This document shows, piece after piece, positions 7,561 to 50,252 of a stretch of DNA of 64,000 nt. The DNA is taken from positions 1-64,000 of the forward strand of contig WHUZ01000153.1 in the NCBI GenBank assembly GCA_015179045.1. Reading direction: 5' to 3'. The translations under genes were made by a program, and so were the position numbers. A model generated the notes under the pieces. The model worked only from the letters and a program-made list of their open reading frames with translations. It was not told the DNA's origin and made no database searches. This DNA comes from Kalaharituber pfeilii. Taxonomy: Eukaryota; Ascomycota; Pezizomycetes; Pezizales; Pezizaceae. How positions within the stretch are numbered: position 1 is the first letter of the stretch; the number at the start of each line of letters is the position of its first letter.

Positions 7561-8367
7561 AGTCAAAGTGTACTGAAGCTTACCTAGTGTTGATCAGATA
7601 CATCTTAGCGAGTCTTATAATAATACAATAGTAGTACCTTATCCGATCTTCGGTAAGTCTTACCCTTAGCCATAACAGAAATATATCCCAGCTGAATATG
7701 ATATTTGATGTAATTCTATGACTTATAAATAAGAAATAAGTAATACAATTATATATAGGAGATAAACATAGCAACAAACCATATAGATCACATGATAATG
7801 AAGATAAGAAAGGCCCTGCCTTGGCGAACAGCTGCACGCGGGGTCATGTGAAATAAAAAAAAAAAAAAAAAAAAGATAAGAAAGAATTAAGCCAATAAAA
7901 TAATAATGTAATATATATGTTATAGGAAATAGGAGGCAGAATTAAGCTGTCTATTTTAACTCTTTTACTCTCTATACGGATTCGACCCTAAAGTTATACA
8001 CCTTTTAGATGACAATACCTATACTTTAGCAGTAGCTGAAGACTGGTTTAACAGGATAACTATAGTACTAATGACTATGCATATAAGGTAAGTTTGCTGT
8101 AAGGTATATAACTTCATATAGTCATCTATATCTTGCTTCTGAAACCTTTCTGAGCGCAACTTGAACCCCAGAAAATAGAGATCAATAATAATAAGTTCTT
8201 GGAAGTTAATCATGTCATTAACTTAAGATGCACTAATAGGGTAGTAAAGTACTAAATCCATTGACAAGACTATGGCAATAGCAAAGATGACGATGCTTAT
8301 AAGTTGATTGAGAAGATTGTTAGAATTTGTCAGAGAGTTTTACGACTGATATCTAAGGAAATCTTGA
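7561..8367. other. AT-rich non-coding sequence
   Basis: AT-rich sequence with many stops in all frames, shared with 40789-41550 in the right arm. Apart from the mini-insertion at 7813 I see no gene. It may be a RIP-decayed retroelement. Confidence 0.5.
7813..7874 (+). mobile_element. Tail-B mini-insertion (62 bp) with empty site
   Basis: Begins GCCCTGCC, ends GTGAAAT plus about 19 A, and is flanked by GATAAGAAAG (7803-7812 and 7875-7884). The right arm keeps the empty site (one copy of the ten bases at 41271-41280). This proves target-primed insertion of a 43-nt body with nothing else. Confidence 0.97.
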
Positions 8368-8379
8368 GACCTTGTGGTC

Positions 8380-8449
8380 AAGCCTGCCTCCGGGCTTTGA
8401 GGGTATAGACCCAGGGCCGCTGCCATGGCGGAAAGCTGCAAGCGGGGTC
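8380..8449 (+). mobile_element. Tail-B short element, interrupted by ORF1-only element
   Basis: Starts at AAGCCTG after the target site GACCTTGTGGTC (8368-8379) and covers three small hairpins up to GCGGGGTC. It is then cut by the element starting at 8450. The full nested structure, with both target duplications, survives in the right arm at 40012-40776. Confidence 0.9.
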
Positions 8450-8849
8450 TTTTTTTTTTTTTTTTTTTTTTTTTTGTATCAATACTCACAGGCCGCCCAA
8501 AGGGCTATGGCGAGGGTTTATTATACCAGAAAAGAAAGAAGTCAACATCTGCGTCTAGCTACTCCTAACTACATGTAATGCCCGCGAAACTCCTTCATGG
8601 TGCGGGTGACAGGTCCGGTATGCCCTACTTCCGTCCCCTCTCCGATTCATACCGGTCCGACCTAAGCCAACGTCCCCCGAGCCTCACCCTCCCAACCTCG
8701 GTCTCCTTCTCCAAGTAAACTACCGCCGATCTGGTTTTCTTTCCTTCCTCAACCAACGTGGTCTTCTTCCTCAGCCAGCGAATTCCAGTGATCTTTCCCA
8801 ATTCCTTATTCGCGGCCTCCAACCATTGTCTGACCTTCCCACCGCCATC
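8450..8849 (-). mobile_element. ORF1-only element, joined to LINE sequence
   Basis: On the minus strand it carries the RRM-like ORF1 end (KVRQWLEAANKELG to YESERGRK), the CCCGC...GCGGG 3' UTR hairpin, tail A and poly(A). At about 8849 it passes abruptly into type-B LINE 3' UTR, whereas the right-arm copy continues into the proline-rich ORF1 N-terminus. The junction is either a template switch or a deletion. Confidence 0.8.
8625..8849 (-). pseudogene. RRM-like ORF1 C-terminus, ORF1-only element
   Basis: Reads KVRQWLEAANKELGKITGIRWLRKK, then TRSAVVYLE, VRLGGRWLRSD, YESERGRK and stop. It is the same domain as at 40283-40536, with one S-to-R change. The upstream residues (MGRGGVDAFVCRDGG) come from the fused LINE 3' UTR and are not part of the original protein. 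Confidence 0.75.
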
Positions 8850-9571
8850 TCTACAAACGAAAGCGTCAACCCCTCCCCGTCCCACTTCCCCGAGGCACTT
8901 AAAAATAGCTACGTCTTACTTCCCCCGCCACCTACGAACAAACGAAAATTCGCCCCCTCCCCTTACACCTTCAGCGAACCAAAAAACTCTCCCAGCGCAT
9001 TCACCACCTCTCCATTCTCCTGCTCCACCATCCATTTCTTGTCGTCAATATCCTCCCACCTTCCCCATCCTTCCAAGTACTCCACCTCCTCACACCTGAA
9101 CGCCAGGTGGTCCGCCGTTTGCCTTTCTCCGCATCCACATATACTCCCTTCCATCGCTTTCCCAATTCTTACTTCCCACTCCTTCCCCATCTCCTTTCCC
9201 GTTCTCAATCTCGTGAACGCCGTTGCGGCCCCCTTCTCCACTCCATCACTGCGCCCCCCACGTATCCCCTTTCTTTTCTCTCCGCCGCGCGCAGTCGCTT
9301 CCACTTCTGCCGCAGCCCCCCTTCTGTCACCACCGACCTCCCTATCCTGTCCGCCGCCTTTTTTGCTTCAACGTCCGCCGCCTCATTGCCGGCGATACCA
9401 ATGTGTGCCTTTACCCACATCAGTTTGACGTCTCCCCCTCTCCTCTTTCTTTCTGCAATTTGGTCCACCACCCTCCTTAGGTCTCCGGTTCGTGCTTTCC
9501 CTAATCTTCCTGCCTTCTTCACTGCCGCGATTGCTGCCTGTGAATCAGTTAGGACGACTACGTTCGCCAAG
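8850..9571 (-). mobile_element. Type-B LINE fragment (RNase H end and 3' UTR)
   Basis: Coding sequence for LTDSQAAIAAVKKAG, MWVKAHIGIAGNEAAD (minus strand, about 9570-9240), then a frameshift near 9235-9300 and the zinc tail CGCGERQTADHLAFRC, ending EFFGSLKV and stop at 8963. Its own tail B is missing and replaced by the ORF1-only sequence. At 9571 it abuts the AT-rich block at GCCAAGCTACTTAG without a visible target duplication. Confidence 0.8.
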
Positions 9572-10780
9572 CTACTTAGATAATGTTGGATGTAAGAATC
9601 TTTTCCTTACAAAAAATTTTTTCTACTAGGTTTTATATTCATTAAGAGTTTTAATGCTCTCACTGACTGAATAAATAAGTCCATAGATACACCAGTCTTA
9701 CTGTCAGCTACAGACAGTTAAAAATCTATAAGAGATCTTGCACGGTATAAGGTATACCGATAATCATATTAGCTATGGAGACTCTTATAAGAGAGCTAAT
9801 ATATTGCTAATAATACTAATTAGTTTTCGATAATTGTCAGTCAAGATGACTGCCCTAAAATGGGAGGTAATATTATAGCTAAGGTAAGGCTTACTTGATA
9901 AGAACACTTATCCTAAACTATTAGTAAGACTAATACTGATAAAGTAAACTAATTACCTATTAAGCTTAGCAGAAGGTTCTTTGTCTTTAGAATAGAGTAG
10001 TATTATGGAAGTATATATCATTATTTATAATTAGATTTCTAGACCTTTGAGGTATTCAGTTTATAAAGCTAATATATACATATATATTAGTATATATTAG
10101 TATCTTATATCTGTACTATTTTTATATGTTTCTACTATATGGATCTATAAATATATATATTGATAGTAATTAGAAATTACTATATTGTAAGTTCTTTATT
10201 TATCTATTAACTAGTTATATATAATATTAGTAAAAATAATTTTTTAGTAGAGTGCAGCCACCCTACCCTGGGTGTGGCAATCGCCTTGAGTACTTTCAAT
10301 GCCTCAAGCATACCTAAAAACTTAATATCCTACCCCAAGATACCTAGTATAAGAAAAAAATTGCATTAGGCTGCTCTATATATAAGGTGCCCACTTACTA
10401 CACTCTATTATCTAAGTAATGATATATATATAAAAAAAAAAAAACTCTATTACCCCTGGCATAGCCAAATTCACTCTCTTCTAATACTTCAATTATATAC
10501 TAAGTAATACCTTTCAATATTACTGTATATATACTCTCAAAGTTAGTATGAGGACTTATGCAAATATAAGACTATTTACTGTAAATAAGCTTGCTACTAA
10601 AGTATACTATTTACCATAACAGTACTATTTACTATAAATGCTATGCTTATCTTAATACCTAATTATATATTTATAACTATTATGATATATATACAGATAC
10701 TCTTCCTTATTCTAGCATGCTCTCTATATAATATAACCCATTTTGCTACATCTTGCTACTACAAACTATTATACCTGTTA
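9572..10780. repeat. AT-rich RIP-like block
   Basis: Very AT-rich sequence packed with TA steps and stop codons, shared with 38780-39960. It looks like a retroelement destroyed by C-to-T mutation. A minimal tail-A insertion lies at 10413-10444. No gene. Confidence 0.7.
10413..10444 (+). mobile_element. Minimal tail-A insertion, left-arm copy
   Basis: Only TAAGTAATGATATAT plus poly(A), between CTCTATTA(T)C repeats (10403-10412 and 10445-10454). The same event is at 39072-39108 in the right arm, where CGAGTAATGATATAT is better preserved. Confidence 0.8.
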
Positions 10781-10941
10781 AATTTGGCTTGGTATAGTAC
10801 ATCTTGAGGCATCATGAAGAGCTGTCATACTTGTTAATATAGCTTATTCTACTATAGCTTGCACTATCAAGAGAGGCCTATCATACCTATTAAAAGACCT
10901 TGTTCTGTAGCATGTTACATTATTAAGAGGGACTAATCATA
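10781..10941 (+). repeat. 56-bp minisatellite, first part
   Basis: Degraded units of about 56 bp (AGCATGTTACATTATTAAGA, CATACCTATTAAAAGACC). The array is interrupted by the DNA element at 10942 and resumes at 12627. In the right arm it is continuous. Confidence 0.8.
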
Positions 10942-12624
10942 CTATATTCTACTAGAATATTATGTACAACTAGAATATTGTGCACTTTCAAAACATGTGG
11001 ATTTTTGTAGTAGTGGTTACAATTTATATGCGAGTATTATAAAACTTTAAAATAATATTTTTAACATATTCTGAAATATATTCTGTATCTTAGATTGCAT
11101 CTATTGGAGGACAGTATAGTGTACTATACTGAAATATACTTAATTAGGCAATAGAGTATCTCTATTTATAAAATTAGATACAGACCAACTAGAGTATTAA
11201 TATGCTTAATTATATATTAGCATATACCTATAATTATATATACTAAGTTTGGTACTAATATAAGTATTGTAGTAGAAGCTAACTAAAAATATTCAAAAAT
11301 AGTAGCAATTTTATAGTAATAGAATCAGGCAGGCTAATAGAAGATATAATAGACTTAAATATAAGTAGAAAGGGTTCTTACAACTAAATTATATAGGAAA
11401 GATTTATTTTTGGTAGTTCTAGTCTCGTATATAATAATTAGAAGTATAGAGAATAAGATACTCCTATCTATATTTAGTAAAATATAATATAGTATATAGT
11501 TTAATATACTAGGTATATAAGATTTTATAATAGAGTAAATTAATTATAAAATATCTAAAATTATAGATAATAAGTTTAGTACTAATATAAGTTTTATAGA
11601 AGAAGTAGTAGCTAAAAATATTTAGAAAGAGTAGTAGTTTAAGAGTAATAAAAGTAAGTAAGTTAAATAGAAATAGAATAAACTTAAATATAAGTAAAAA
11701 CTATTCTTATAATTAAAATATATAGTAAAGATTTATTTTTAGTACTTATAAGACTCTATATTATAATTTAGAGTCTAAAAAATACTATACTATATTCTAT
11801 TAAATTTTATATTATATTAGATATAATATAGTATATATTTTATTATATAAGATATATGAGAACTTATAATATGTAAAAAATATTAAAACTTTCTAGAAAT
11901 AAGAAAAAAGTAAAAAAATTCTTAAAATATAAAATAAAATAGAGATATTATATATATCTTCAAAAAATATAAGGACTAGTATCTGTATATAGCTTGAAAG
12001 ATAAAAGTATAGAAGGTGTAAATAATTTAATCTATTATATATTCTTATATACTAAGTATATTAACTATATATTATAATATATCTTATAAAATATGAATTA
12101 TAGCATACTATTTCTTACAACTTCAATTATTATAAGAGGTTGTAAAACTATTACAAATAAATCTTTATCATATACTTTAGCTGTAAGAACTCTTTCTACT
12201 TATATTTAAGCCTATTGTATCTCCTATTAGCCTGCCTGCTTCTATAACTACCGAATTGCTACTATTTCTGAATATTTTCAGTTAATACTTCTGCTACAAT
12301 ACTTATATCAGTACCAAACTTGATATATATAATCATGAGCATATGCTAATGTGTAATGAAGCACATCAGCACTCTAGCTGGTCTGTGTCTGATTTTATAA
12401 ACAGAGGTTCCCTATTGCCTAATTCGGTATATCTCAGTACACTACAGCATGTCATCCTCAGATGAATGCAAACTGAGGTGCCAAAACTACTCTCCCATGT
12501 ATAATTGAGATGTACCTAAATTCCTGATGTAATAGAACCACTCAGTAATTTGTAATAGTCTTATTTTCACTTATCCGGGGTTGCGCAATATCCCGGTTAT
12601 GCGCAATATCCCGGTAGAACACAG
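10942..12624. mobile_element. Long-TIR, Tc1/mariner-like DNA element, RIP-decayed
   Basis: Inserted at a TA dinucleotide (10940-10941 and 12625-12626). The right arm has the empty TA at 38575-38576. The right terminus, inverted, reads CTGTGTTCTACCGGGATATT; the left reads CTATATTCTACTAGAATATT, differing only by C-to-T and G-to-A changes. The arms of homology extend about 500 bp inward. A third internal copy of arm sequence lies at about 11500-11760. No transposase frame survives, so it is a non-autonomous or gutted element. Confidence 0.85.
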
Positions 12625-12626
12625 TA

Positions 12627-12925
12627 CATATTAAAAGACCTTATTCTGCAGCATGTCGTACCGTCGAGAGGGACCTACCATACCTATTAATAGAGCTCAT
12701 TCTGCAGCATATCGCGTCATTAAGAGGGACCTGCCATATCTATTAACAGAGCTTATTCTTCAGCATATCGTATGCTGTTGAGAGGGGCTGCCATACCTGT
12801 CAATTGAGCTCATTCCGTAGTATCTCAAGCCGTCGAGAGGGGCCTACCATACCTGCTAAAAGACCTCATTTTGCAGCATATCACACCGTTGAGAAGGACC
12901 TGCTATACCTGTCAATTGAGCTTAT
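12627..12925 (+). repeat. 56-bp minisatellite, second part
   Basis: Five units of about 56 bp with the core CATTCTGCAGCATATCG and GAGAGGGACCTACCATACCT. The units differ by a few bases. An open frame across the array (12804-13040) exists only because of the repeat, not because it is a gene. Confidence 0.9.
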
Positions 12926-13090
12926 GCTGCTTCCTTTCACGATGTCACAGCCACCTACATACATATCGATATTATACTTTTCTGCAGCCGACAGGTCAAG
13001 CCGAGCCGATGTGCCAAGCCGGAAGGTAAGACCTTACTAATAGGTGACTCGAAAAGGCTTGACAAGCCATCCCATTCCCATGCGACAAAT

Positions 13091-15746: not shown

Positions 15747-15756
15747 TCCTGGATTT

Positions 15757-21085: not shown

Positions 21086-21784
21086 CAGTCACACCCGTCA
21101 GTTAGGCTCATAGACAAGGGTCGCGGAGCCTTGGGACAAGTGGCCCACATATATGTTTGCCCTCCGGTCAAACGACTCCAGCCCGTTCACGTCGAGTTCG
21201 CTCAGATCGCCTCCGGCGCCGGCGAATATATCCCTCCCACCCAACCATGCCCCCCCACTTCGACCATGAGCGTCCCGCCGGCGCCTCTCCTGTAACTGGC
21301 ATTGAGCTCACGGCGCAGCACTGCCTCACGAAATGGCACGTCCCCTGCGGTGACGGATGGTGGTGCTACAACCGCGCGGCAAGCGCAACAGGGAGCTGGT
21401 GCGTGAGAACGCTGAACCCCGGGTGGCCATTCGTGACCGACATACAGACGGGCGCGATACAGCCAGGTATGCAGCAGTGTACGGAGGGGATGATTGAGTG
21501 TGCGAAGGAGGCAGGTGGGGGAGGTTTCCGACAGGAATAGGGTGCACGGTGCTCCAGGGGAGGATGGGGTGCGGACCGACGGCGGACGATACGGTGTCAA
21601 GATGGATTTTTTTCCGAGGCCGACACGCCGCAGATCGGTGGGGTAGGGGAGGATGATGATGAGGATGGGGGAGACCCTGAGAGCAACACTGAGGCACGCT
21701 CAGACGACAATCGTACAAGTGAGCTTCCCCCTGGCACGGCAGCAGCAATTTGTGTGTCGTCTCCTGACTCCTGAGCACTGTGCT

Positions 21785-21824
21785 GCCCTGCCTTGGCGAG
21801 CAGCTGCGCGCGGGGTCGCGTGAC

Positions 21825-21851
<27 letters not shown>
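21785..21851 (+). mobile_element. Tail-B mini-insertion
   Basis: Begins GCCCTGCC and ends GTGAC plus about 28 A. Flanked by a perfect GAGCACTGTGCT (21773-21784 and 21852-21863). The body is about 40 nt. Confidence 0.97.
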
Positions 21852-21855
<4 letters not shown>

Positions 21856-21863
21856 ACTGTGCT

Positions 21864-36805: not shown

Positions 36806-37685
36806 CTATTTTGGGTGCAGGGTAGGCGAGCAAAGCTTACTAGTTTCCGTCCAGTCAACAAGACAGGCAAACCAGTTGAATTCTGTATAGCAATTGGGGA
36901 TATCCTTATTACCCTGCTTAAGATTGCTGAGTTGCCGGCTTGCAGTTCCCTGACGGTCGGGATCCCTAAACGCCTCATTCAGAACATTGAAGAGAGCCAT
37001 AATACTAGTTAAGGTAATGGTATTATTGTCGATGTAGGGCTGGACTTGGGACAAGACCTTCCCTTCGAGGAGGCCTATGGCATAGACAAACTTATGATTC
37101 TCAGTGGGGAAGAGTTTAGAGTTGCCTAGCAGCTTGAGTGTGACTATGGTCTTGAACGTCTTCAGCAAATCTCGAGATCTATCGAATTTAGCAGGGTCTG
37201 CTACTTTGGCAGCTCGATAGTGGTAATCAACAGGTTCGGATGTTGAAGTAATTTTTTTTTTTTTTTTTCACGTGACCCCGCATGCAGCTGTTCGCCAAGG
37301 CAGGGCCCCTGGGTCTAAACCCTCAAAGCCCGGAGGCAGGCTTATGTTGAAGTAATTGATAATGCCTTGATTGTTTGGCGAGCATCATCCAACTGGGTCT
37401 GTAGTACTGATTGTTGGTTAATGGCAGCATCGAGGTAATCTTGGAGCTCCTTGATCTGATGTTGGCAAGAGTGAGTTCATCCTGCAGTGAGGTACCTCTA
37501 GCATTCATAGCATTCACGAGATTGGAGATTTCCTGTCGATATGTCTGAAACTCAGTTGAATTGTTAGGCATGGGCTTAATTTCCCAAGCTTGTAGGTAGG
37601 TGACAAAGTCGGTGGCATTGGAGGAGGGTATCAGAGCTGAAGAGGATAATACATTAGAAGCAGGCACGCCAATGGAAGGCATGGA
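36806..37685 (-). pseudogene. Ty3/gypsy Gag remnant
   Basis: The minus strand gives SSNATDFVTYLQAWEIKPMP, QEISNLVNAMNARG, then, after the insertion at 37254, LLKTFKTIVTLKLLGNSKLF, AYAIGLLEGK-like VYAIGLLEGKVLSQVQPYID, LNEAFRDPDRQGTASRQLSN and TEFNWFACLVDW. This is the capsid-like region of fungal Ty3/gypsy Gag. Frames are broken and neither LTRs nor pol are visible nearby. Confidence 0.75.
37254..37343 (-). mobile_element. Tail-B short element (90 bp) starting AAGCCTG
   Basis: Flanked by a perfect ATGTTGAAGTAATT (37240-37253 and 37344-37357), inside the Gag remnant. On the minus strand it starts AAGCCTGCCTCCGGGCTT. The same 5' end is seen in the independent copy at 40012-40776. Confidence 0.97.
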
Positions 37686-37690: not shown

Positions 37691-38126
37691 ATGTACTGGT
37701 TGGCGAGTGGGCAGGTCTGTTATAGTGTAACGTCAGCGGTGGGCTTGGGCGGAGGCCTTGCTAAAGGGTATAGTCAGCTTAGGTATTGGCAGCGGGTCAG
37801 CGACTATAGGTCGAGGACTACGGAAGCACCAGTGGCGACGGCGGCGGCAGCAGCTCAGCAGCTAGGAGTCACGGACTATAGCAATGGCAGTAGTGGAGAA
37901 GTATGAGAAACCAGATAGGTCTATTAATCAACAAGACAATAGCCAAGGAGAAGAAGAGCCATCTATAGAGGCGGACCTGGGGCTCTTATATGCTTGAAAA
38001 TTGACATAGAAAGGAATACAGGACTATAATGATATGAGAAAGAGAATCCGAAATGCAAGAGCAGCAATAGTAATACTAATATTGAAAGACATATGAATGA
38101 GCTGTCAGAGAGCTAATCAACCGGAC
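37691..38126. other. Unassigned sequence before right arm
   Basis: No gene recognised. A GCGGCGGCAGCAGCTCAG simple stretch occurs at about 37840. The sequence diverges from the left arm at 38127. Confidence 0.35.
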
Positions 38127-38279
38127 TGGGATGGCTTGTCAAGCCTTTTCGAGTCACCTATTAGTAAGGTCTTACCTTCCGGCTTGGCACATCGGCTCGG
38201 CTTGACCTGTCGGCTGCAGAAAAGTATAATATCGATATGTATGTAGGTGGCTGTGACATCGTGAAAGGAAGCAGCATAA

Positions 38280-38770
38280 GCTCAATTGACAGGTATAGCA
38301 GGTCCTTCTCAACGGTGTGATATGCTGCAAAATGAGGTCTTTTAGCAGGTATGGTAGGCCCCTCTCGACGGCTTGAGATACTACGGAATGAGCTCAATTG
38401 ACAGGTATGGTAGCCCCTCTCAACAGCATACGATATGCTGAAGAATAAGCTCTGTTAATAGGTATGGCAGGTCCCTCTTAATGACGCGATATGCTGCAGA
38501 ATGAGCTCTATTAACAGGTATGGTAGGTCCCACTCGACGGTACGACATGTTGCAGAATAAGGTCTTTTAATATGTATGGTCAGTCCCTCTCAATAATGTG
38601 ACATGCTGCAGAACAAGGTCTTTTAACAGGTATGACAGGCCTCTCTCGACAGTGCGAGCTATAGTAGAATAAGCTATATTAACAGGTATGGCGGCTCTTC
38701 ATGATGCCTCGAGATGCACTATACCGAGCCGAATTTAACAGGTATGACAGTCTGTGGCAGCGAGATGTGG
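38280..38770 (-). repeat. 56-bp minisatellite, uninterrupted array
   Basis: About eight to nine units of about 56 bp with CAGGTATGGTAGGCCCCTCT and ATGCTGCAGAATGAGCTC. It is the uninterrupted version of 10781-10941 plus 12627-12925. Confidence 0.9.
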
Positions 38771-38779
38771 CAAAATGGG

Positions 38780-39960
38780 CTATATTGTATAGAGAGCATG
38801 CTGGGATGGGGAAGAGCACCTGTATATAGATCACAATAGCTACAAATATATAATTAGGTGTTAAGATAAGCATGGCATTTATAGTAAATAGCACTGTCAT
38901 GGTAAATGGCATACTTTGGTAGCAAGCCTATTTACAGTAGATGGTCTTACATTTGCATAAGTCCCCATGCTGACTTTGAGAGTACACGTGTCGTGATATT
39001 GAAAGGTATTACTCAGTATATGATTGGAGCACTGGAAGAGAGTGAATTTGGTTATGCCAGGGGCAATAGAGTTTTTTTTTTTTTTTTTTTTTTATATATC
39101 ATTACTCGGACAATAGAGTGTAGTGAGTGGGCACCTTATGTGTAGAGGGGCCCAATGCAATTTCTTGAATACGCCAGGGCATAATGCAATTTCTTTCTTA
39201 TACCGGGCACCTTGGGGTAGAATGTCAAGTTTCTAAATATGCTCGAGGCACTGAGAGCGCTCAGGGCGATTGCCGCACCCAGGGTAGAGTGGCTGCACCC
39301 TACTAAAAAATTATTTTTACTGATATTATACATAACTAGTTAATAGATGAATAAATAACTCACAATATAGCAATTTCTTATTACTATTAACATATATATT
39401 AATAGATTCATATAGTAGAAACATACAAAAATAGTACAGATGCAAGATACTAATATATATGTATATATTAGCTTCATAAACTGAGTACCTCAAAGGTCTA
39501 GAAATCTAATTATAAATAATAACATATACTTCCATAACACTATCCTATTCTAAAGACAAAGAGCCTTCTGCTAAGCCTAATAGGTAATTAGTTTGCTTTA
39601 TCAGTATTAGTCTTACTAATAGTTTACGATAAGTGTTCTTCTTATCAAGTAAGCCTTACCTTAGCTATAACATTACCTCCCATTTTAGGGCAGTCATCTT
39701 GACTAACAATTATCGAAAACTAATTAGTATTATTAGCAATATATTAGCTCTCTTATAAGAGTCTCTATAGCTAATATAATTATCGGTATACCTTATACCG
39801 TGCAAGATCTCTTATAGATTTTTAACTGTCTGTAGCTAACAGTAAGACTGGTATATCTATGGACTTATTTATTCAGTCAGTGAGAGTATTAAAACCCTTA
39901 ATAAATATAAAACCCAGTAGAAAAAATTTTTTGTAAGGAAAAGATTCTTACATCCAACAT
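38780..39960. repeat. AT-rich RIP-like block, right-arm copy
   Basis: Counterpart of 9572-10780, with many stops and TA-rich sequence. No gene. Confidence 0.7.
39072..39108 (-). mobile_element. Minimal tail-A insertion (15-nt body)
   Basis: A T-run of about 22, then ATATATCATTACTCG, between GGCAATAGAG (39062-39071) and GACAATAGAG (39109-39118). The body is only CGAGTAATGATATAT, which is the 3' strand of the outer stem plus terminus. Confidence 0.9.
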
Positions 39961-40053
39961 TATCTAAGTAGCTTGGCTATAGCTCTTAATGCCTTATTAG
40001 ACCACAAGGTCTTTTTTTTTTTTTTTTTTTTTTTTCACGTGACCCCGCTTGCA

Positions 40054-40536
40054 TTCGGTCGATATCACACCCATGGGAGCACCACCCCGCGCAGAGGAGA
40101 CTCCGAGCGCGACTCCACCCCCCCCCCCACCGCCAAGAAGGGCAAAGGAAAGCTGCCGAGCCAAGACGAAGCCTTCAAGCGCCACCTGGCAGCCACCTCA
40201 CGCAAAGGTCCCTCTCCCCGCCCCAGGAGCACTTCCACCTCCCCACCAACCAACCCCGATGCCACCACCAGATTTAAAACCGGCATCGTAGTACATGGGA
40301 TCGCCCTACGGAAGGACCTAGGGAAGGTCAGACAATGGTTGGAGGCAGCGAATAAGGAACTGGGAAAGATCACTGGAGTTCGCTGGCTGAGGAAGAAGAC
40401 CACGTTGGTTGAGGAAGGAAAGAAAACCAGCTCGGCAGTAGTTTACTTGGAGAAGGAGACCGAGGTTGGGAGGGTGAGGCTCGGGGGACGTTGGCTTAGG
40501 TCGAACCGGTATGAATCGGAGAGAGGACGAAAGTAG
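40054..40536 (+). pseudogene. RRM-like ORF1 protein of nested element
   Basis: Reads KGKGKLPSQDEAFKRHLAAT, then a Ser/Pro-rich linker, GIVVHGIALRKDLGKVRQWL, GVRWLRKKTTLVEEGKKTSS, VRLGGRWLRSNRYESERGRK and stop at 40534-40536. It is open for the whole 160 codons but without its own ATG in this frame, because upstream sequence belongs to the disrupted tail B. It is 5'-truncated relative to the element at 47088. Confidence 0.75.
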
Positions 40537-40706
40537 GACATACCGGGCCTGTCACCCGCACCATGAAGGAGTTTCGCGGGCATTACATGTAGTTAGGAGT
40601 AGCTAGACGCAGATGTTGACTTCTTTCTTTTTCTGGTATAATAAACCCTCGCCATAGCCCTTTGGGCGGCCTGCGAGTGTTGATATTAAAAAAAAAAAAA
40701 AAAAAA
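40054..40706 (+). mobile_element. ORF1-only element nested in tail B
   Basis: Flanked by GACCCCGCTTGCA (40041-40053 and 40707-40719), a duplication of the tail-B hairpin itself. It encodes the RRM-like ORF1, then the ACCCGC...GCGGGC 3' UTR hairpin, tail A with CTCGCC...GCGAG, and poly(A). Confidence 0.96.
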
Positions 40707-40788
40707 GACCCCGCTTGCAGCTTTCCGCCATGGCAGGGCCCCTGGGTCTATACCCTCGAAGCCCGGAGGCAGGCTTGACCACAAGGTC

Positions 40789-42014
40789 TCAAGACTTCCT
40801 TAGATATCAGTCGGAAAACTCTCTGACAGATTCTAACAATCTTCTCAATCAACTTATAAGCATCGTCATCTTTGCTATTGCCATAGTCTTGTCAATGGAT
40901 TTAGTACTTTACTACCCTATTAATGCATCTTAAGTTAATGACATAATTAACTTCCAAGAACTTATTATTATTGATCTCTATTTTCTGGGGTTCAAGTTGC
41001 GCTCAGAAAGGTTCAGAAGCAAGATATAGATGACTATATGAAGTTATATACCTTACAGCAAACTTACCTTATATGCATAGTCATTAGTACTATAGTTATA
41101 CTGTTAAACCAGTCTTCAGCTACTGCTAAAGTATAGGTATTGTCATCTAAAAGGTGTATAACTTTAGGGTCGAATCCGTATAGAGAGTAAAAGAGTTAAA
41201 ATAGACAGCTTAATTCTGCCTCCTATTTCCTATAATATATATATTACATTATTATTTTATTGGCTTAATTCTTTCTTATCTTCATTATCATGTGATCTAT
41301 ATGGTTTGTTGCTATGTTTATCTCCTATATATAATTGTATTACTTATTTCTTATTTATAAGTCATAGAATTGCATCAAATATCATATTCAGCTGAATATA
41401 TTGCTGTTATGGCTAAGGGTAAGACTTACCGAATATCGGATAAGGTACTACTATTGTATTATTATAAGACTCGCTAAGATGTATCTGATCAACACTAGGT
41501 AAGCTTCAGTACACTTTGACTGTTTGGTGGTTATCTCTCAGAAGTGTATATCAGTTCATGTATGTTCGCTGCACTAATATATGCATACTCCTCCACCACT
41601 CACATCCTTTCCTGCTCTGTGCAAGTTCAAATACTAGTCCCTTTGCTCTCTTGTCGTATTGTCGGCAAGTCTCGCTCTGATCAACATCTTCTACAAACTC
41701 GGTATGGACGCTTGAATCGCCATTATACTACAAAATATCTCACTATAGTCAATAGCTTTATGTACTGCAGTATGAAAAAAATTTATCTCAACGTGAAAAC
41801 ACTAATTCAAGCTGGCAATTTACCCTCAGAAAACTGTTCCTGTCCACAAGGATGTATACCCCAGTGATGTGGCTGGAGAAAGTGCCTACGTACCCGTTCA
41901 CCTTCTTGTTATCCTGATGTGGAAAGTCAAAGTCACTACAGAAGGCTCAGATAATGAAGTGCATCAAGAGGAAAATGATGATGTTCATAGTACTATTCAT
42001 GTCAGTTAAGAAAT
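40789..42014. other. Right-arm flank: AT-rich sequence and CCGGGCCA repeat part
   Basis: Counterpart of 7069-8367 without the mini-insertion at 7813. The frame at 41544-41867 is not conserved as protein in the left arm and is not called as a gene. Confidence 0.5.
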
Positions 42015-42018
42015 CATG

Positions 42019-42021
<3 letters not shown>

Positions 42022-42052
<31 letters not shown>

Positions 42053-42894
42053 TCATTACTCGCATTCCGCCCTGGGGGCTACGGCGAGGTATAATTTAAA
42101 TACATGAGTAGTATGAGAAATAAGAAAATAATAAAATAAGTGGTTAAAAAATATGAAGATAAGTAAGTACACCAGTAAGACAGTGATCCGATGCTCCCCT
42201 AATGTTCCTTCAGTCTTCTTCGCTTGGCATCTCCATTAGCTTGTGTAAGGGGTCCTGTTCGTCGTCTCCTTTCTTTGGGGGTCTGCGTATGTCTTCCATT
42301 CCGGGCCATCTTCTCCGCCATACTCGGCAGGATTCCATAAGGTGTCCGGTGGTCTCTGCCTGTTCGCCGCACCAGCAGCAGTCCGTGTCGTTTGATTTCC
42401 CTATCTTGTGTCTCCATGCCCTTAGGCCCTCCCCCCCTAGCAAGCCCGCCAGTTGAGTTACTTGCTTCCCGAGCCTCTGTAAGGGTCGGTCGGTACACTA
42501 ATTCTAGTCGGTTTTTTTCTCAAGCTCTCGCGTGTCTGGAGTTCTGTCTCATGCCTGTCTCTGTGATGACTTCAGTTTGGTATTGTAATGCTGTGCCTAT
42601 CCTGGCTGCTCTGTCTGCGTCTTCGTTTCCCGGTATGCCTTTGTGTCCCTTGATCCACATTACCGATAGGTCCTGGTCTCCCCTCTCTATCCGCCTCTCC
42701 CACGCTATCCTGGTTTTGTGCGCCGCTCCCTCGTGTGTCTGGTTGCCGTTCGCGATCCCCTCGACTTTAGTTATCGCAACCTTGGAGTCGGTGAGGATCA
42801 TGAGTTCTCCTAGGGCTTCACTCACGGCGAGTAGTTCCGCGTCGTTGACTGTAGCGTAGGTGCCCAGGTATATCGACTTGGTTTTGCCCCCCCC
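42022..42894 (-). mobile_element. Type-A LINE, right-arm copy
   Basis: Minus strand: YLGTYATVNDAELLAVSEAL, VMWIKGHKGIPGNEDAD (open to about 42523), zinc tail CCWCGEQAETTGHLMESC, 3' UTR, tail A and poly(T) at 42022-42049. It lacks the mini-insertion that splits the left-arm copy. A deletion removes a few residues after SEAL compared with the left arm (DTTD). Confidence 0.88.
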
Positions 42895-43026
42895 CATGTA
42901 TTGTAAAGCGGCAACATCTCTATTAATTATGCATTTAGGCTCGTTTTTGGTCTTTAATCCTTGTAACTTGATCAGTGGCCCGTCCCGTCCCAGTGATGAG
43001 CAGCCCGGTTACCGACTGGCCCGGAT

Positions 43027-43087
43027 CCCGCTATGGCGAACAGCTGCAAGCAGGGCTACGTGAAAAAAAAAAAAAAAAAAAAAAAAA
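43027..43087 (+). mobile_element. Tail-B mini-insertion, right-arm copy
   Basis: Flanked by GACTGGCCCGGAT (43014-43026 and 43088-43100). The body runs from CCCGCTATGG to CTACGTG plus about 26 A. Counterpart of 5923-5980. Confidence 0.95.
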
Positions 43088-43172
43088 GACTGGCCCGGAT
43101 AAGATGGATGGCCCCGAACATATATATTCTTACTTAATATGTCGATCTCGCTGCACTCTGCACACCGCCCCA

Positions 43173-43175
<3 letters not shown>

Positions 43176-43211
<36 letters not shown>

Positions 43212-44652
43212 TCACGTAACCCCGCATACAGGCTACCAGCCTATGGCAGGGACCCATATACCCGGGCCAGGTTTGAGACAACTAACTACGGAATCTACAT
43301 ACACCCTTGAGCACCCAGTGCCCTCCGTCCCCCGGTCCCCGGCTACCCCAGATCGAGGCAGGCAAACCAGTACTCGACCGGGTCACCTTCCACGCCTTCT
43401 TGCTTCCATCCTTTCTCCTCTAGGTCCTTCCAGGACTGCCAGGTGACATGTGCCCCATTTTTGTTCTTCCTCTGGGGCCGCTCCAGTTCTGTGCATCTGA
43501 ACACCACATGCTCAGTACTCCATGCCTCACCACATGTGCATTGTACCTCCTCGCCACTGACCATCCTCCTCCACATAGCTCCGCCTTTTCCAGTCCGCAG
43601 CCAAGTGTAATTTGTGAGTGCTCTCCTGCCCCACTTTACGAATTTGCCCTTCCCAAACCCTGCACGCTCCCTCTCCTCTTTTCTTTTTCGAACTAACTCT
43701 TGACGCAGCCCACCCTCAGTGGCCTGCCCATCATACCTCATGCACTTGGCCCCCTCTTTGGCCAACTCATCCGCCTTCTCATTGCCTTCTATCCCCACGT
43801 GGGCCTTGACCCATGCCAGCTTCACTGCATCCGCCTTCCTTAGCCTCCGCCGCCTCTCTGCAATCAGCTCTATCACCCGCGCTAGGTCTGCGGTTCTTGC
43901 CTTGCCAGTTTTTCCTGCTTTCTGGACTGCACTGATAGCTGCCTGAGAATCTGCGAGTAGTAGTACTTTTGCACTGCCATCAACTGCTTCAAGGGGACCC
44001 CTCATTCCTGAGACCTCACCGTCCCACACAGTTGCCTTTGTGCCTACCCACCGGGACCCCTCTGACTCACCTGCTACCACCTGCCTCCAGCACCATCCGC
44101 CACCAACACCGCCTTCCTCACTGCGGCTGCCGTCTGTAAAAATAGCCACCGAGTCACCCTTAGCCTCATTGATGGCCTTTTCCCATTTGGCTGGGGCGTC
44201 TTCCTTGCACAACTTGAGGCCAATGACCTCAATGCCTGTCTGTGGTAGGTGTACATCTCGCCCCCAGGACACTCTCTCCTCCTCATTGACCTCGAGAGTG
44301 CTGGCAATCTTTCCAGCTACTGACTCAAACCCATCATTTTTGTCTGCAGCATAACTCAAGCTAAAGTCTCTCCAGTCCCTCCCCCTTTCACCCTCTCTGT
44401 CTGGGTCTGGGGCTACCATTCCAGTGAAGCTTTCCGGCCATAAATCTCCAACTCCTGTAGGGTCCCTCACTGATCTTAGTGCATATCTTGCTTGGCCTTG
44501 ATCGAGAATCGTCGTTACACTCTCTACTCCAGCAATGGCCTCGACCTTTACTCTCGCTGCCCCTCGGACTGCACCAGTGCATTTGCGAAGTGCTTGATAC
44601 TACAACTTCTCAAACTCCTCTCTCCACTGCTTCTGGCCTCTCCACCCAATTT
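43176..44652 (-). mobile_element. Type-B LINE, 5'-truncated, perfect target duplication
   Basis: Flanked by ACACCGCCCCACTC (43162-43175 and 44653-44666). It includes thumb, RNase H, zinc tail, 3' UTR, tail B and a T-run of about 34. It shares its 3' insertion site with the longer LINE at 3452-5834. Confidence 0.96.
43343..44470 (-). pseudogene. LINE ORF2 C-terminal part, long open frame
   Basis: Open for about 375 codons from ATG at 44470. RNase H motifs FTDGSRSEEGG, WDGEVSGMRG, LADSQAAI and WVKAHVGIEGNEKAD are all present, followed by the zinc tail CTCGEAWSTEHVVFRC and the end YWFACLDLG. It keeps GAA where the left-arm copy has TAA (5634), so its C-terminus is the unmutated version. A TAG upstream of the ATG matches the one at 4422 in the other copy. 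RT is missing through 5' truncation. Confidence 0.85.
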
Positions 44653-44845
44653 ACACCGCCCCACTCAAGTGGCATCTACGTACATCTATTAGCAAGTGCT
44701 GTCAGCAATTCAGAAAATACCCGCGAAAATGTGCCAATAAATATGACAGTACCATTCTCTGCATATTAACCTGAGCACCATCAAACTTGCTACACTTTCT
44801 CAGAATTGGCAACAAAGTATACATCGAGATCAATAAGTTCCTGAG

Positions 44846-44906
44846 GCCCTGCCATGGCGAACAGCTACAAGCGGGGTCACGTGAAATTAAAAAAAAAAAA
44901 AAAAAA
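44846..44906 (+). mobile_element. Tail-B mini-insertion
   Basis: Begins GCCCTGCC and ends GTGAAATT plus poly(A). Flanked by a perfect ATAAGTTCCTGAG (44833-44845 and 44907-44919). Confidence 0.97.
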
Positions 44907-44971
44907 ATAAGTTCCTGAGTAGGATCATTGACTCATGGCGACTCAGAGTGTGTCTAGTATAGGATTTGGTA

Positions 44972-45319: not shown

Positions 45320-45408
45320 TGACTTTCCTTTTTCTGTGTTTTTTAAAAAAAAATACAGTATCGCTTACCGCTGTTCACTATGGCAGGTCAACTGACATGC
45401 ATAGTGCT

Positions 45409-45441: not shown

Positions 45442-45557
45442 CATGCATAGTGCTAGAAGTATCACTCCGTTTACAGTACATGGTTTCTCAACTGACATGA
45501 ATGGAAGTATGAACATCATCATTTTCCTCTTGATGTGCCTCACCATCTGACTCTTCT

Positions 45558-45609
45558 GGCGAACAGCTGCGAGAGGGGTCACGTGAAAAAAAATGAAAAA
45601 AAGAAGAAA
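45558..45609 (+). mobile_element. Tail-B mini-insertion starting GGCGAAC
   Basis: Flanked by TCTGA(C/T)TCTTCT (45546-45557 and 45610-45621). The body GGCGAACAGCTG...GTCACGTG is about 28 nt, then a mixed A-run. It starts in the loop of the tail-B hairpin. Confidence 0.92.
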
Positions 45610-45730
45610 TCTGATTCTTCTATACCCCGATTTTAGGATTCCACATCAGATGACACGAGGGTGAATAGGTACGTAGGCGCTTTCTGCAGCCACATCGCTG
45701 GGTTATACATCCTGCTTGACAGGAACACTT

Positions 45731-46056
45731 TTTTTTTTTTTTTTTTTTATCACGTGACCCCGCTTGTAGCTGTTCGCCTTTTTTTTTTTTTTTTTTTTTT
45801 TTTTTATTTCATTACTCGCGTGCCGCCCTACGGGCTATGGCGAGGGTTTATTTCAAAGAAAAAACTAACTAAACGACTAAATACATGTGGGGCCCGCGGG
45901 TCTATTTGTGTGTTGCGGGGGAGCGGCCAGCATCTGTCTCATCTCCTTCCTCTCTCTGTCTCGTACTGGCTCGCCTTGAGCCATCTCCCTCCAAGTCGCA
46001 CCCTGTCAATGTCTTGAGGGTCCTCCAAGTAGACCAGCTGTTCGCCATGGCAGGGC
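45731..46056 (-). mobile_element. Tail-B mini-element hosting an ORF1-only fragment
   Basis: The outer body starts at GCCCTGCC on the minus strand, with target duplication GACAGGAACACTT (45718-45730 and 46057-46069). It is split by the insertion at 45779-46035. Confidence 0.95.
45779..46035 (-). mobile_element. ORF1-only element fragment (257 bp) nested in tail B
   Basis: Flanked by AGCTGTTCGCC (45768-45778 and 46036-46046), a duplicated piece of the tail-B hairpin. The minus strand holds VYLEDPQDIDRVRLGGRWLK and YETERGRR then stop, followed by 3' UTR (CCCGCGGG), tail A and poly(A). Confidence 0.95.
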
Positions 46057-46293
46057 GACAGGAACACTTTAGTGAGCGGCACGAGCCGAGCCAGCTTGTC
46101 ACGGGCCTACCCAGAGAGGCTGGGGATATCCACCTGAGTTGACCCATAAGGCTGCTAGTGACCATTCGGCCTGATCAACCGATAGCTACAGCAGGGCAAT
46201 ACAATTGACAGGTCGGGTCACGGAAGCGTATCACAAGCAGAGCGCATGATTGAGTGAGTTGCGCCACTGAGTGGCAAGAGTACGCGTAGGCTT

Positions 46294-46712: not shown

Positions 46713-46745
46713 ACGCGTAGGCTTGTTGTGCACAGCCTCAGACAT

Positions 46746-46954
46746 TGTTATTGATTGTTAAGCATTGTTATTGATTGTTAAGCATTGATATCGATTGTTA
46801 CGCATAGATAGCATAAGCAATAGAACATACAGTGGGCATGCGCGGGGAGCTGGCTATATAAGGAGGGCCTTCTGCCTTCGAGAGATGGTCAAGCTTCAGG
46901 CGTTGTCCTAAGTTACACCCTCACTTTAGCTACATCATCGTAGACTCCGTAACA
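46746..46954 (+). repeat. LTR-like repeat inside the hAT element
   Basis: TGTTATTG...CCGTAACA ends, a duplicated 20-bp unit (TTGTTATTGATTGTTAAGCA), GCTATATAAGGAGG and GCGTTGTCCTAAGTTACA shared with 31240. No flanking duplication was seen, so an LTR is only one reading. Confidence 0.45.
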
Positions 46955-47087
46955 CAGCTCGAGCCCGAGCCCACGCGAGCTAGCTCGAGCTTAAGACAGC
47001 CAAGATCACGATAGTGTTTCTCTTGACAGCTCGCTAAAACGCTCAGCCAGCGCAGGGTTTCATAAACTGTAAATACCTAATATGGTA

Positions 47088-48486
47088 CAACAACCACCTC
47101 AGGACGAGCGTTTGGAAGCGACTCCACAACCACAACGTCCCCCCCGCTGAAAATCACATAGATCGAAAGCGCTCAGCGAGCTGAGTCTTTTGATCTAGTT
47201 TTTATCCTCAAACACTCGGAACTACGTTTTTCCCCCGAGGGGGGAATTCTTGAGGATCCCTCAACTCACCACCACCGTTGCCACCCCACCGTCGAGGCGC
47301 CAAGAGCCAATAGACAACCGCGGATAAGGCTAGACAACCAATAGAAAATGCCACCGAAGGGCAAAAAGACACAGACGGTACCCCCCCCACCGCCCACCCC
47401 AGCGGCGGTCACCACTCCGCCCCCAACGCGGCGCAATATTTGGGGGGAATTGAGGAAACACGGCATCGGCTGGTACGAGGTAGTCGAACAGATGTGGAAG
47501 GAAAAAGCCAAAGACACGACGTCCCCGGGGAAAGGAGCGACCCTGATAATACGGTTCCTAGGGGACGGCGACATCGACCCGGAGGAGATCCTCGGCCTTC
47601 AACCCGGCCAGATTCCCCCAGGGCTCCAAGTCGCACCACCGCCACAGACACTGGGGCTCAGCCCCATCCAGAACATAGACACCGAGCCGACACCACCAAC
47701 GCCACCACAGCCACTGGGGCTCAGCCCCATCACGAACGTGGACACCGAGCCGTCACCGCCACAGCCACAGACACTGGGCCTCAGCCCCGTCGTGCAAATA
47801 GACATGGCGCCAGCACCAACGCCACCACAGCCGCTGGGGATGAGCCCAATCAGCCACATACACATAGCCCCGGCGAAGGCTCCTACCACCCCCAAGGTGG
47901 GAGCAAATAAAACCCCGACACACGCAACAAGGAAGAGGAAGGCAAGACCCGCCTCCCCGACCACGAAAACCACTTCCGAGGCCACTCCCGCAGCCGCCAA
48001 ACCCACCCTCAACCCCCGTCCCGAAACCAGGTCCCCGACCCCCCGAAGATCAGACAGCCCCCTGGAGAAAAAAGGCATAGTCGTCCATGGAATCGCCCTG
48101 AGGAAAGACTTGGGGAATGTCCGGAGATGGCTAGAGACAGATAACATAGGCATGGGCAGGATCACCGGGATTCGATGGCTGAGGAAAAAGTCAATCCTGT
48201 TGGAAGAGGGGAAAAAGACAAGTTCCGTGGTGGTATACCTGGAGACACCTACGGAGACCGGGAAAGTCAGGCTCGGAGGAAGATGGTTAAACACAAGTGT
48301 TTACGAGACAGACAGGGGAAGGAAGTAGACAGGTTTTTTCGGGGTTCCCGGCTACCCGCACCACGAAGGACAAGCGGGAAATACATGTATTTAGTGTTTA
48401 GTTAGTCCTTTTCTTTCTTTAAATATACACCTCGCCATAGCCCACAGGGCGGCATGCGAGTAATGAAATAAAAAAAAAAAAAAAAA
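47088..48486 (+). mobile_element. Full-length ORF1-only (HAL1-like) element
   Basis: Flanked by TATGGTA (47081-47087 and 48487-48493). It has a 5' UTR of about 260 nt, one intact ORF (47348-48328), a 3' UTR with CCCGCACC...AGCGGG hairpin and ACATGTATTTAG, tail A and poly(A). No endonuclease, RT or RNase H is present. As the longest copy in the window it defines the family. Confidence 0.9.
47348..48328 (+). CDS. RRM-like ORF1 protein of ORF1-only element (intact)
   Basis: Product of 326 residues. Residues 1-28 are Lys/Pro-rich (MPPKGKKTQTVPPPP), followed by a folded-looking part RRNIWGELRKHGIGWYEVVE (about 29-80). Four imperfect repeats follow, each with (P/T)LG(L/M)SP and a D-containing linker (about 98-190). 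Then come a basic Ser/Thr-Pro region (about 190-240) and the RRM-like domain GIVVHGIALRKDLGNVRRWL...YETDRGRK (about 243-326). ORF1 proteins of this type bind element RNA. The zinc knuckles expected after the RRM are absent and the stop follows RGRK directly. It is probably expressible if transcribed, and RT must come from elsewhere. Confidence 0.8.
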   Translation: MPPKGKKTQTVPPPPPTPAAVTTPPPTRRNIWGELRKHGIGWYEVVEQMWKEKAKDTTSPGKGATLIIRFLGDGDIDPEEILGLQPGQIPPGLQVAPPPQTLGLSPIQNIDTEPTPPTPPQPLGLSPITNVDTEPSPPQPQTLGLSPVVQIDMAPAPTPPQPLGMSPISHIHIAPAKAPTTPKVGANKTPTHATRKRKARPASPTTKTTSEATPAAAKPTLNPRPETRSPTPRRSDSPLEKKGIVVHGIALRKDLGNVRRWLETDNIGMGRITGIRWLRKKSILLEEGKKTSSVVVYLETPTETGKVRLGGRWLNTSVYETDRGRK

Positions 48487-48781
48487 TATGGTAATAAATT
48501 AGAGACTTGGAGAGTCGGAGCTCATTCTAACCTGCCAACAACTTCTATAAATATCAAAAGTGGTTCAATTACATAGACCTATATCAAGTCTTTTATGTTT
48601 AGTATCTCTCAAGGTCTCTAGAAGGTAAGTTGCACATTTTAAGAATGTATATGTAGGCCTCTCTATTCCCTCTATTCTCTTGAAATTCTTTTCTCTTTAC
48701 TACTACCTAATATCAAGACTTCGAGACTCATACTACACTTCAAGATTCTTGTTCCTTATATTACATTAGCAATTTATCAAT

Positions 48782-49960
48782 ATGACAACCAATTCTACAT
48801 CAATTCGTGATGCCTTTCTTGCCAGCCTAGCTGGCCGATTTTCTTCAGTTAAAGATCAAAGCAACGGCTGGACCAGAAAGAGGCGAAGAAAATCACAACC
48901 TCTCTCCCGGTTCAGGACCCTGGGCAGCACCCCCGCCAACACCCCCACCACACGACAACCCCCACCTCCGACTCCCAAGCCCCCCCATCCAAGTCCTAAG
49001 ACACACCAGAAAGCCAGCCGAAGCCACCAAGAAGACAAGCACACCCTCCGCCCCCCCCAACTAACCCCAGCGCCACCACATCGAAGTACGGCGTTGTAAT
49101 ACACGGAATCGTCCTGAGAAAAGACCTGGGAAGAGTCCGGAAATGGTTGGAGGCAGGGAGTGCGGAACTAGGGAAGACAGTTGGTATCAGGTGGTTGAGA
49201 AAAAAGACATTGCTGCTGGAAGAAGGAAAAAAGACCAGTTCAGTTGTAGTGTACTTGGAGGAACACACTGAAATAGACAGGGTTAGGCTAGGAGGGAAAT
49301 GGCTGAGGACCAGCCCATACGAACAAGACAGAAGACGGAAGTGAAGGACGCTCTCGTTCTGTATGGATTTTCTACCCGCATCATGTTTCAGATCCGCGGG
49401 CCCTACATGTATCTAAAGGCTACGTTCAGTTTTTTCTTTTCATCTTAATAAACCCTCGCCATAGCCCGTAGGGCGGCACGCGAGTAAGTAAAAAAAAAAA
49501 AAAAAAAAAAAGTTAAAGATCAGCATACTGTTTTGAACTCTCATCATCATAGTTACCTGTATGAAAGATGTATGATTTTGTGACGAAAAATGAGCACGAA
49601 ATTTTATGTATGCATTGTTCGAAGACTTGGCAAGTCAAAAGCCATACAACAACCACATCCATCCCATTTTCGGAATTCACATGCATCAGTTCCACCTTCG
49701 CGTCAACTAGTAACGCCACAGAATTGAAGAGACGAATACCATTTGACAGGATGGTTCCAACAAAGTGAGCTAAGCCAGAGGGCTTTTCTGAAACACAGTA
49801 TCGTGAACTCCTTTGCCGCTTTCTTATCTCAACAAATCCACTAATCAAACTAGCAGTGGAGGAACTTGCCGCAGGAGTAAATGTAGAAGAAATACTGAAT
49901 TTAGCGGATAGCGGCGAGGAGGATGAAGCTGTAGAATAGTTTAGATTAGTTATCAATATC
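48782..49960 (+). pseudogene. hAT transposase N-terminus (BED-like finger), interrupted
   Basis: MTTNSTSIRDAFLASLAGRF, then SSVKDQ, is cut by the ORF1-only element at 48859 and resumes at 49512. Downstream, DFVTKNEHEILCMHCSKTWQ with SHTTTTSI resembles a BED-type zinc finger, and YRELLCRFLISTNPLIKLAV resembles the start of the hAT catalytic region. The frame contains stops (for example after VPTK at 49766), and no DDE catalytic block survives. A subtle point: the frame across the insertion joins cleanly when the duplication is counted once. Confidence 0.6.
48859..49511 (+). mobile_element. ORF1-only element, 5'-truncated
   Basis: Flanked by GTTAAAGATCA (48848-48858 and 49512-49522). RRM-like region YGVVIHGIVLRKDLGRVRKW (another frame from the proline-rich start), VRLGGKWLRTSPYEQDRRRK, stop, CCCGC...GCGGG 3' UTR hairpin, tail A and poly(A). 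Confidence 0.95.
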
Positions 49961-50181
49961 ATGTAATCAAGCTCGAGCTCACCTTCTATTTGGCGAGCTC
50001 GGCTCGAGCCGAGCTCACTTACCCACGAGCTGGCTCGAGCTCACCCTCCAGCTCGGCTCGAGCTAGCTCGTGCCGCTCACTAGTTCAACACTTTCCTGAA
50101 AATAATTTGCCAACTTGAGTAGTGCTGTCATGTTGACAGTACAGTATATTCGCCAAGACCGACAACAGGAGCGGCTACATA

Positions 50182-50185
<4 letters not shown>

Positions 50186-50212
<27 letters not shown>

Positions 50213-50252
50213 GTCACGTGTCCCCGCATGCAGCTGTTCGCCATGGCAGGGC
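50186..50252 (-). mobile_element. Tail-B mini-insertion
   Basis: On the minus strand it begins GCCCTGCC and ends GTGAC plus about 27 A. The flanks GAG(C/T)GGCTAC(A/G)T (50169-50180, 50253-50264) are an imperfect, slightly offset duplication. Confidence 0.85.

Follow-up and report, generated by a model that had tools for sequence, protein, structure and literature searches.

Copies of long interspersed nuclear elements (LINEs) that have lost their 5' part are well described for human L1 and zebrafish ZfL2-2; they consist of the LINE 3' end with a poly(A) or other tail and are flanked by target duplications. Their truncation points usually vary from copy to copy (PMC3747384). In stringent-type tails, found in eel UnaL2 and in plant L1 and short interspersed nuclear elements (SINEs), the tail is preceded by a conserved 3' stem-loop showing paired changes, which the reverse transcriptase is believed to recognise (PMC3747384). 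Among fungi, MINE and other chimeric retroelements of Magnaporthe are LINE products with target duplications, made during LINE reverse transcription; in MINE, WEIRD RNA is joined to a truncated LINE by template switching (PMC2104539).

Here we describe short retroposons of the desert truffle Kalaharituber pfeilii (Ascomycota, Pezizaceae) that are made up of the terminal hairpin of a LINE and a poly(A) tract. We call them minis, and the LINE tail in which the pattern is strongest tail B. They are examined in a stretch of 64,000 nucleotides (contig WHUZ01000153.1, assembly GCA_015179045.1; referred to as the window) and in the whole assembly, 78,031,657 bases in 360 contigs, of which the window is contig 61. 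Minis share the LINE 3' end, the tail, the target duplications and the missing 5' part with truncated L1 and ZfL2-2 copies. Unlike those with their varying truncation points, most tail-B copies begin at one base and a second class begins at another. SINEs have a separate promoter-bearing head, whereas minis are the hairpin alone, and in contrast to MINE only 0-4 extra bases stand before it. LINE 5' truncation is usually taken as the polymerase giving up. Here RNA structure appears to fix where insertions start, because most mapped tail-B copies begin at the first pair of one of two hairpins. A search of the open-licence literature, within the search words used, yielded no description of LINE retroposons that consist of the hairpin only and begin at a fixed base. 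The ingredients (LINE tails, target-primed insertion, RNA decay stops) are known singly and their combination is, to our knowledge, new.

Start points of the insertions

A preliminary description of the window named five tail-B insertions at different target sites, all beginning at GCCCTGCC and finishing in poly(A). Four of them proved to lie between exact target duplications and the fifth next to a diverged one. They are given below with the other short copies of the window.

7813..7874, plus strand: tail-B mini, 42-nt hairpin and spacer (7813-7854) and A tract (7855-7874); exact target duplication GATAAGAAAG at 7803-7812 and 7875-7884
21785..21851, plus strand: tail-B mini of the GAGCAGCTGCGCGC haplotype; exact duplication GAGCACTGTGCT at 21773-21784 and 21852-21863
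44846..44907, plus strand: tail-B mini; exact duplication TAAGTTCCTGAG at 44834-44845 and 44908-44919
45729..46056, minus strand, start at 46056: tail-B mini interrupted by a nested tail-A LINE fragment; exact outer duplication GTGTTCCTGTC, on the plus strand GACAGGAACAC, at 46057-46067 and 45718-45728
about 45779-46035, minus strand: the nested tail-A LINE fragment, with its own target duplication GGCGAACAGCT
50186..50252, minus strand: older tail-B mini; only a diverged duplication (10/12 bases), a few bases off the A tract
45558..45602 (3' limit approximate), plus strand: shorter tail-B copy beginning GGCGAACAG by the inner stem; flanks CTGACTCTTCT / CTGATTCTTCT
6548..6603, minus strand: tail-A mini beginning ATCGCC, the first pair of its own hairpin; duplication GAGGCTC (plus strand) at 6541-6547 and 6604-6610

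Because their target duplications all differ, the five named insertions are separate events. The sequence GCCCTGCC occurs nine times in the window, against an average of 2.1 in shuffled sequences, none of 100 of which reached nine. Two of the four remaining occurrences (37306 and 40739, minus strand) belong to LINE copies that extend upstream, and two (318, minus; 24934, plus) lie in unrelated sequence. The copy at 45558 is an exception, starting 10 nt inside the hairpin, with one mismatch in its duplication.

The window also contains an inverted segmental duplication, blocks within 4372-13078 recurring inverted in 38123-44652, about 25 kb apart and 86-99% identical. Insertions present in one arm and absent from the other leave a pre-insertion (empty) site there. 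For the mini at 7813 this site, at about 41271-41282, is uninterrupted and holds a single copy of the target; the tail-A mini at 6548-6603 likewise has its empty site in the inverted duplicate. These two sites prove that what was inserted is exactly hairpin plus A tract. Copies at 5923 (minus) and 43063 (plus), both beginning CCCGC, lie one in each arm and were counted as one insertion.

Next, we examined the start points genome-wide. The 3' half of tail B alone served as query, so that the start was not selected; the 100 listed among 718 exact copies were examined, the start being called by a target duplication scoring at least 8. Such a duplication was found in 83 copies, and in 71 of these 83 the start fell at -4..+2 relative to the G of GCCCTGCC, with which pairing in the terminal hairpin begins. 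The others lie at +5 (two copies, in which the match extends into the hairpin across a mismatch), at -37/-38 (four) and at +9, -6, -10, -111, -185 and -216. As a control, flanks were exchanged among copies; a match was then obtained in 74 of 494 pairs, and in only 2 of the 494 did the start fall within -4..+2. Among the 17 copies lacking a duplication of score 8, about four appear by eye to be minis with weak duplications and about ten are long, while three are unclear. Target duplications differ between the copies of this sample. The sharp, rather than flat, distribution that had been predicted for this base was thus found, and in independent insertions the start coincides with the first base pair, at the foot of the terminal hairpin as proposed.

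The minis end in poly(A) and have variable target duplications, as retroposons mobilised by LINEs through target-primed insertion do; the spread of truncation points typical of 5'-truncated LINEs is absent from tail B, where 71 of 83 starts fall within 7 bases. On the 5' side of the hairpin the mapped minis have only the target duplication and 0-4 bases. As an exact pattern, GCCCTGCCWTGGCGARCAGCTGC is present in 1030 copies; 109 also have CCAGGG ahead, as in LINE copies, and 921 (89%) do not, a figure that includes any LINE copies mutated at that place. With one mismatch permitted, the 21-base start occurs 2894 times in the genome. Among the matches listed, exact starts are dense in the first 0.6-0.8 Mb of contigs 1 and 2 and sparse beyond, hinting at repeat-rich versus repeat-poor compartments. 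In tail-B copies of the set L031-L130, short variable motifs (CACA, TATATA, AAGGG, AATT) stand between the GTGA end of the hairpin and the A tract, as if reverse transcription stuttered on starting.

The preliminary description had assumed a single fixed start. The main peak is sharp, but a second class of starts was revealed farther upstream, besides the inner-stem case at 45558. LINE sequence ahead of the tail-B hairpin occurs 222 times with at most one mismatch; our sample comprised 60 of the 100 matches listed among these, eight others being already in other samples. Starts were mapped in 31 of the 60, and the remaining 29 gave no duplication, many perhaps being longer than the 450 bases examined. 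Of the mapped starts, 21 lie at -42..-35, none in -34..-5 and 10 farther upstream (-52 to -384). The swap control matched in 24 of 295 pairs, with a single start in -40..-21 and no start in -60..-41. In the fold, pairing of the next upstream hairpin, AAGCCTG-CCTC-CGGGCTT, begins with the base at -37. No start among the 31 mapped copies falls at a smaller hairpin lying between the two feet. Further groups at about -122/-126 and -363/-377, two copies each in this sample, are too few to claim as classes. One second-class copy has 15 T between target duplication and start; poly(T) starts are known in L1, where they are attributed to twin or dual priming (PMC2837659).

These results bear directly on two trivial explanations. 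Random 5' truncation is normal for LINEs and is seen in tail-A copies, and copying of one ancestral insertion did double one window insertion through the inverted duplication (5923 and 43063). For the bulk of tail-B copies both are refuted: starts are concentrated sharply at two bases (71 of 83 at the main one, against 2 of 494 swapped pairs), target duplications differ and empty sites are present. We regard either process as the source of the pattern as practically out of the question.

The phenomenon is strongest in tail B and, contrary to the first impression, not confined to it. In tail A, a different LINE tail, 19 of 86 copies could be mapped within 120 nt, 12 of them at -2..+2 of the first pair (control: 5 of 250 pairs match, none at the first pair). 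In a separate sample, a start could be assigned in 13 of the first 20 among 345 exact tail-A copies; 4 lie at -3..+2, and the other 9 are spread between -75 and -353 (swap control 33/380). Tail-A LINEs therefore combine ordinary scattered truncation with a peak that falls far short of the one in tail B. Three copies of a related tail, B'' (L058, L061, L192), begin at an A in the position of the tail-B G, which by inspection can pair with the same U; other B'' copies extend upstream as LINE copies. For tail B', 432 copies of the 3' part compare with 312 that include upstream sequence (one mismatch permitted in each), so that minis can make up no more than a minority; one B' copy begins two bases ahead of its own foot.

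Origin of the minis and structure of the hairpins

We then compared the hairpins of minis and of long LINE copies. The set was restricted to hairpins beginning GC and within 6 substitutions, giving 183 tail-B hairpins: 72 with LINE sequence ahead, 109 without and two intermediate. Since the loci were partly chosen for their start (L001-L030) or for LINE sequence (L131-L190), the proportion of 109 to 72 is no rate. Seven exact 38-nt haplotypes are common to minis and long LINE copies, out of 31 and 46. Of the 72 long copies 4, and of the 109 minis 6, carry the linked set CCTTGG-GAG-GCGCGC with ACACA or ACAAA after it. Because haplotypes are shared with long copies, the minis, judged from their sequences, arose from LINE RNA more than once and from several LINE subfamilies.

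The LINEs in question were traced by extending four long copies upstream. Just before the tail, three contain RNase H-like sequence and the fourth ORF1-like sequence. The region upstream of one tail-B copy (L193, upstream of L169) has endonuclease and reverse transcriptase domains (PF14529 and PF00078) above cut-off, its RNase H match being weak and below cut-off. Minis thus have the same 3' end as an endonuclease/reverse transcriptase LINE, as expected of retroposons mobilised by LINEs.

An independently made hairpin RNA, one of the origins suggested at the outset, is disfavoured by these data. Were the minis a SINE or small-RNA family with a gene of its own that merely borrows the LINE tail, their great excess over copies with adjoining LINE sequence (921 of 1030 lack it by exact pattern) would be easily understood, as SINEs may be so abundant. 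The seven shared haplotypes would, though, require several separate genes, about 40 nt leave scant room for a promoter, and a promoter-bearing head of the kind that defines SINEs (tRNA, 5S, 7SL or similar) is missing, as no Rfam match or tRNA was found at the elements in the window. We consider such a family quite improbable. ARAGORN finds one tRNA in the window (52796-52874), away from the elements, and a tRNA-like head was dismissed. A DNA transposon was rejected as well, the poly(A) end and varied duplications speaking against it.

HDV-like ribozymes (named after hepatitis delta virus) occur at the 5' ends of LINEs such as R2 and SIDER. The minis resemble them in having a defined 5' end directly followed by a seven-pair stem. 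On inspection the 38-nt mini hairpin differs from them in lacking the second and fourth stems, and with these the double pseudoknot that directly follows the 5' end in such ribozymes. A self-cleaving ribozyme was discarded since the window has no Rfam match at gathering threshold and there is no room for the known folds.

Paired changes support the hairpin of tail A, as in stringent-type tails. Across 78 distinct tails, 28 double-sided cells were counted, against an average of 7.8 and a maximum of 16 in shuffles; the foot pair, changing from C-G to A-U, accounts for 19 of the 28. These cells count sequences, without correction for relatedness. Paired variation is almost absent from tail B and from the upstream hairpin, which are too invariant for covariation to inform. 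Tail-A and B' hairpins are more stable than shuffled sequences (z -2.1 to -2.8). In 68 long copies, the mean pair probability of the outer stem of the terminal hairpin is 0.91 for the hairpin alone and 0.95 with 37 nt of upstream sequence; it declines to 0.77 with 60 nt and to 0.45-0.46 with 120-200 nt. The hairpins are thus predicted to form best after upstream RNA has been removed. This fits progressive trimming; equally, it implies that the hairpins may be missing from the full transcript.

How the start may be set

We favour the explanation that LINE RNA is trimmed from its 5' end to the foot of a hairpin and then retroposed by the LINE machinery, and would assign it a probability of roughly 0.55. 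The endonuclease - reverse transcriptase - RNase H LINEs concerned end in a hairpin and then poly(A). Their transcripts would lose sequence progressively at the 5' end, down to a hairpin that halts the process, most simply by a 5'-to-3' exonuclease, with a LINE protein perhaps holding the hairpin. The remaining stub of hairpin and poly(A) would retain what the LINE enzyme requires and could template target-primed reverse transcription. The enzyme would run off the 5' end of the stub, often adding one untemplated A to the complementary DNA (cDNA), which corresponds to T in the element.

The second start supports trimming, because trimming in the 5'-to-3' direction would stop at 5' feet, and both starts are 5' feet. 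Two successive 5'-foot starts, the untemplated T and the several LINE sources together fit an RNA that was shortened at its 5' end and retroposed. Structure-defined RNA ends have a parallel in viral decay fragments resistant to XRN1, whose stall sites are reported at or near structural landmarks of two viral RNAs (PMC4352041). This is an analogy only: the hairpins described here are ordinary stem-loops and known from DNA insertions alone.

Junction bases provide more direct information on the template. Of 109 minis, 97 were mapped, 84 of them at -4..+3 and 13 outside; one long copy starts at -30. Duplications of 12-14 bp are carried by 60 of the 84 minis. Extra bases at the junction are present in 26 of the 84, the base next to the starting G being T in 18 cases and otherwise C (5) or G (3). 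In the LINE RNA the base adjoining the start is G. Against an expectation of 25%, T is in excess (p 3e-6) and G is not clearly depleted (p 0.08); the share of G is far from what templated copying would give. An extra T where the LINE RNA has G points to a copied template that ended at the start. Among the 58 minis devoid of extra bases, 21 overlap with the target, a slight excess near chance (p 0.04 against 25%).

Extra bases and short overlaps at 5' junctions are known in other LINEs too. Full-length L1 copies overlap their targets at chance level and truncated ones above it, and extra bases occur in 12-15% of Alu and truncated L1 copies (PMC2912911). In ZfL2-2, about 40% of the copies have extra bases and 50% have overlaps, and its authors suspected template jumps (PMC2666801). 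By this measure the minis resemble run-off at an RNA end more than broken-off copying, which is suggestive only.

The main competing explanation is that the reverse transcriptase works on longer LINE RNA and lets go after copying its own recognition hairpin, its hold then being lost. That the main start coincides precisely with the edge of the conserved terminal hairpin suits this, and the scattered truncation in tail A shows that the enzyme does break off prematurely on longer RNA. The second start, at the upstream hairpin, would demand a second binding site. Release should scatter stops by some bases and leave a templated G before the start, but G was observed in only 3 of 26 junctions; moreover, by simple reasoning, a polymerase moving 3' to 5' along the RNA would be expected to stall on meeting the 3' foot of a hairpin, not at the 5' foot. 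We hold release to be a real, though unlikely, possibility. The preliminary description had left open whether the RNA is processed or the reverse transcriptase stops. Of the two, processed RNA is the better, still tentative, fit.

It is also conceivable that a longer cDNA is trimmed back from its free 3' end until the foot of the hairpin, here formed by DNA, is reached, and is then joined to the target. As the complementary strand can fold the same hairpins, trimming would be halted at the same two feet. This sequence of events requires that RNA be removed and the cDNA folded ahead of second-strand synthesis, and we judge it improbable.

Several observations weigh against trimming of the RNA. 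The two tail-B hairpins are not unusually stable compared with shuffles (z -1.28 and -0.09). The pair probability of the upstream hairpin, 0.83 with 37 nt, drops to 0.25 with more context, and the terminal hairpin is missing from the minimum-energy fold of one 201-nt LINE tail. In one sample, tail-A copies are mostly scattered truncations (9 of 13). XRN1 is seldom stopped by ordinary hairpins, so that a bound LINE protein may be needed; where it does halt, it does so a few bases short of the structure and not at the first pair. Finally, extra bases can also arise by end joining or by template jumps, as suggested for ZfL2-2 (PMC2666801).

More tentatively, and with slightly less than even confidence, we propose that 5'-to-3' decay of LINE RNA leaves uncapped hairpin stubs of about 40 nt which more than one LINE family retroposes in large numbers, the element starts marking to the base where trimming stopped. 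If the RNA is indeed trimmed first, decay and retroposition are in competition for LINE transcripts, and the genome retains a fossil record of decay intermediates at base resolution. A hairpin of about 40 nt with poly(A) would then be suggested as sufficient for LINE mobilisation, a minimal template.

Other features of the window

Longer LINE copies in the window are the following.

37252..37343, minus strand: copy of a LINE tail, comprising the upstream hairpin, a spacer and the terminal hairpin, and running through AAGCCTGCCTCCGGGCTT before GCCCTGCC; upstream limit unmapped
3396..5834, plus strand: LINE copy containing parts of a reverse transcriptase and an RNase H (PF00078, PF00075), with the related tail B' at 5761-5834
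4425-5633: RNase H frame of a LINE, over 65% of its length 98% identical to a Kalaharituber pfeilii protein

ORF1-like frames lie at 47345-48325, shortly followed by tail A, and at 39937-40533. Elsewhere in the genome, at locus L192, ORF1-like sequence adjoins a tail-B copy. ORF1-only half-LINEs may exist. The window further contains Helitron frames (Helitron_like_N, PIF1 helicase) at 53785-57111 and a protein with a HeLo (prion-inhibition) domain at 26264-27277, both on the minus strand.

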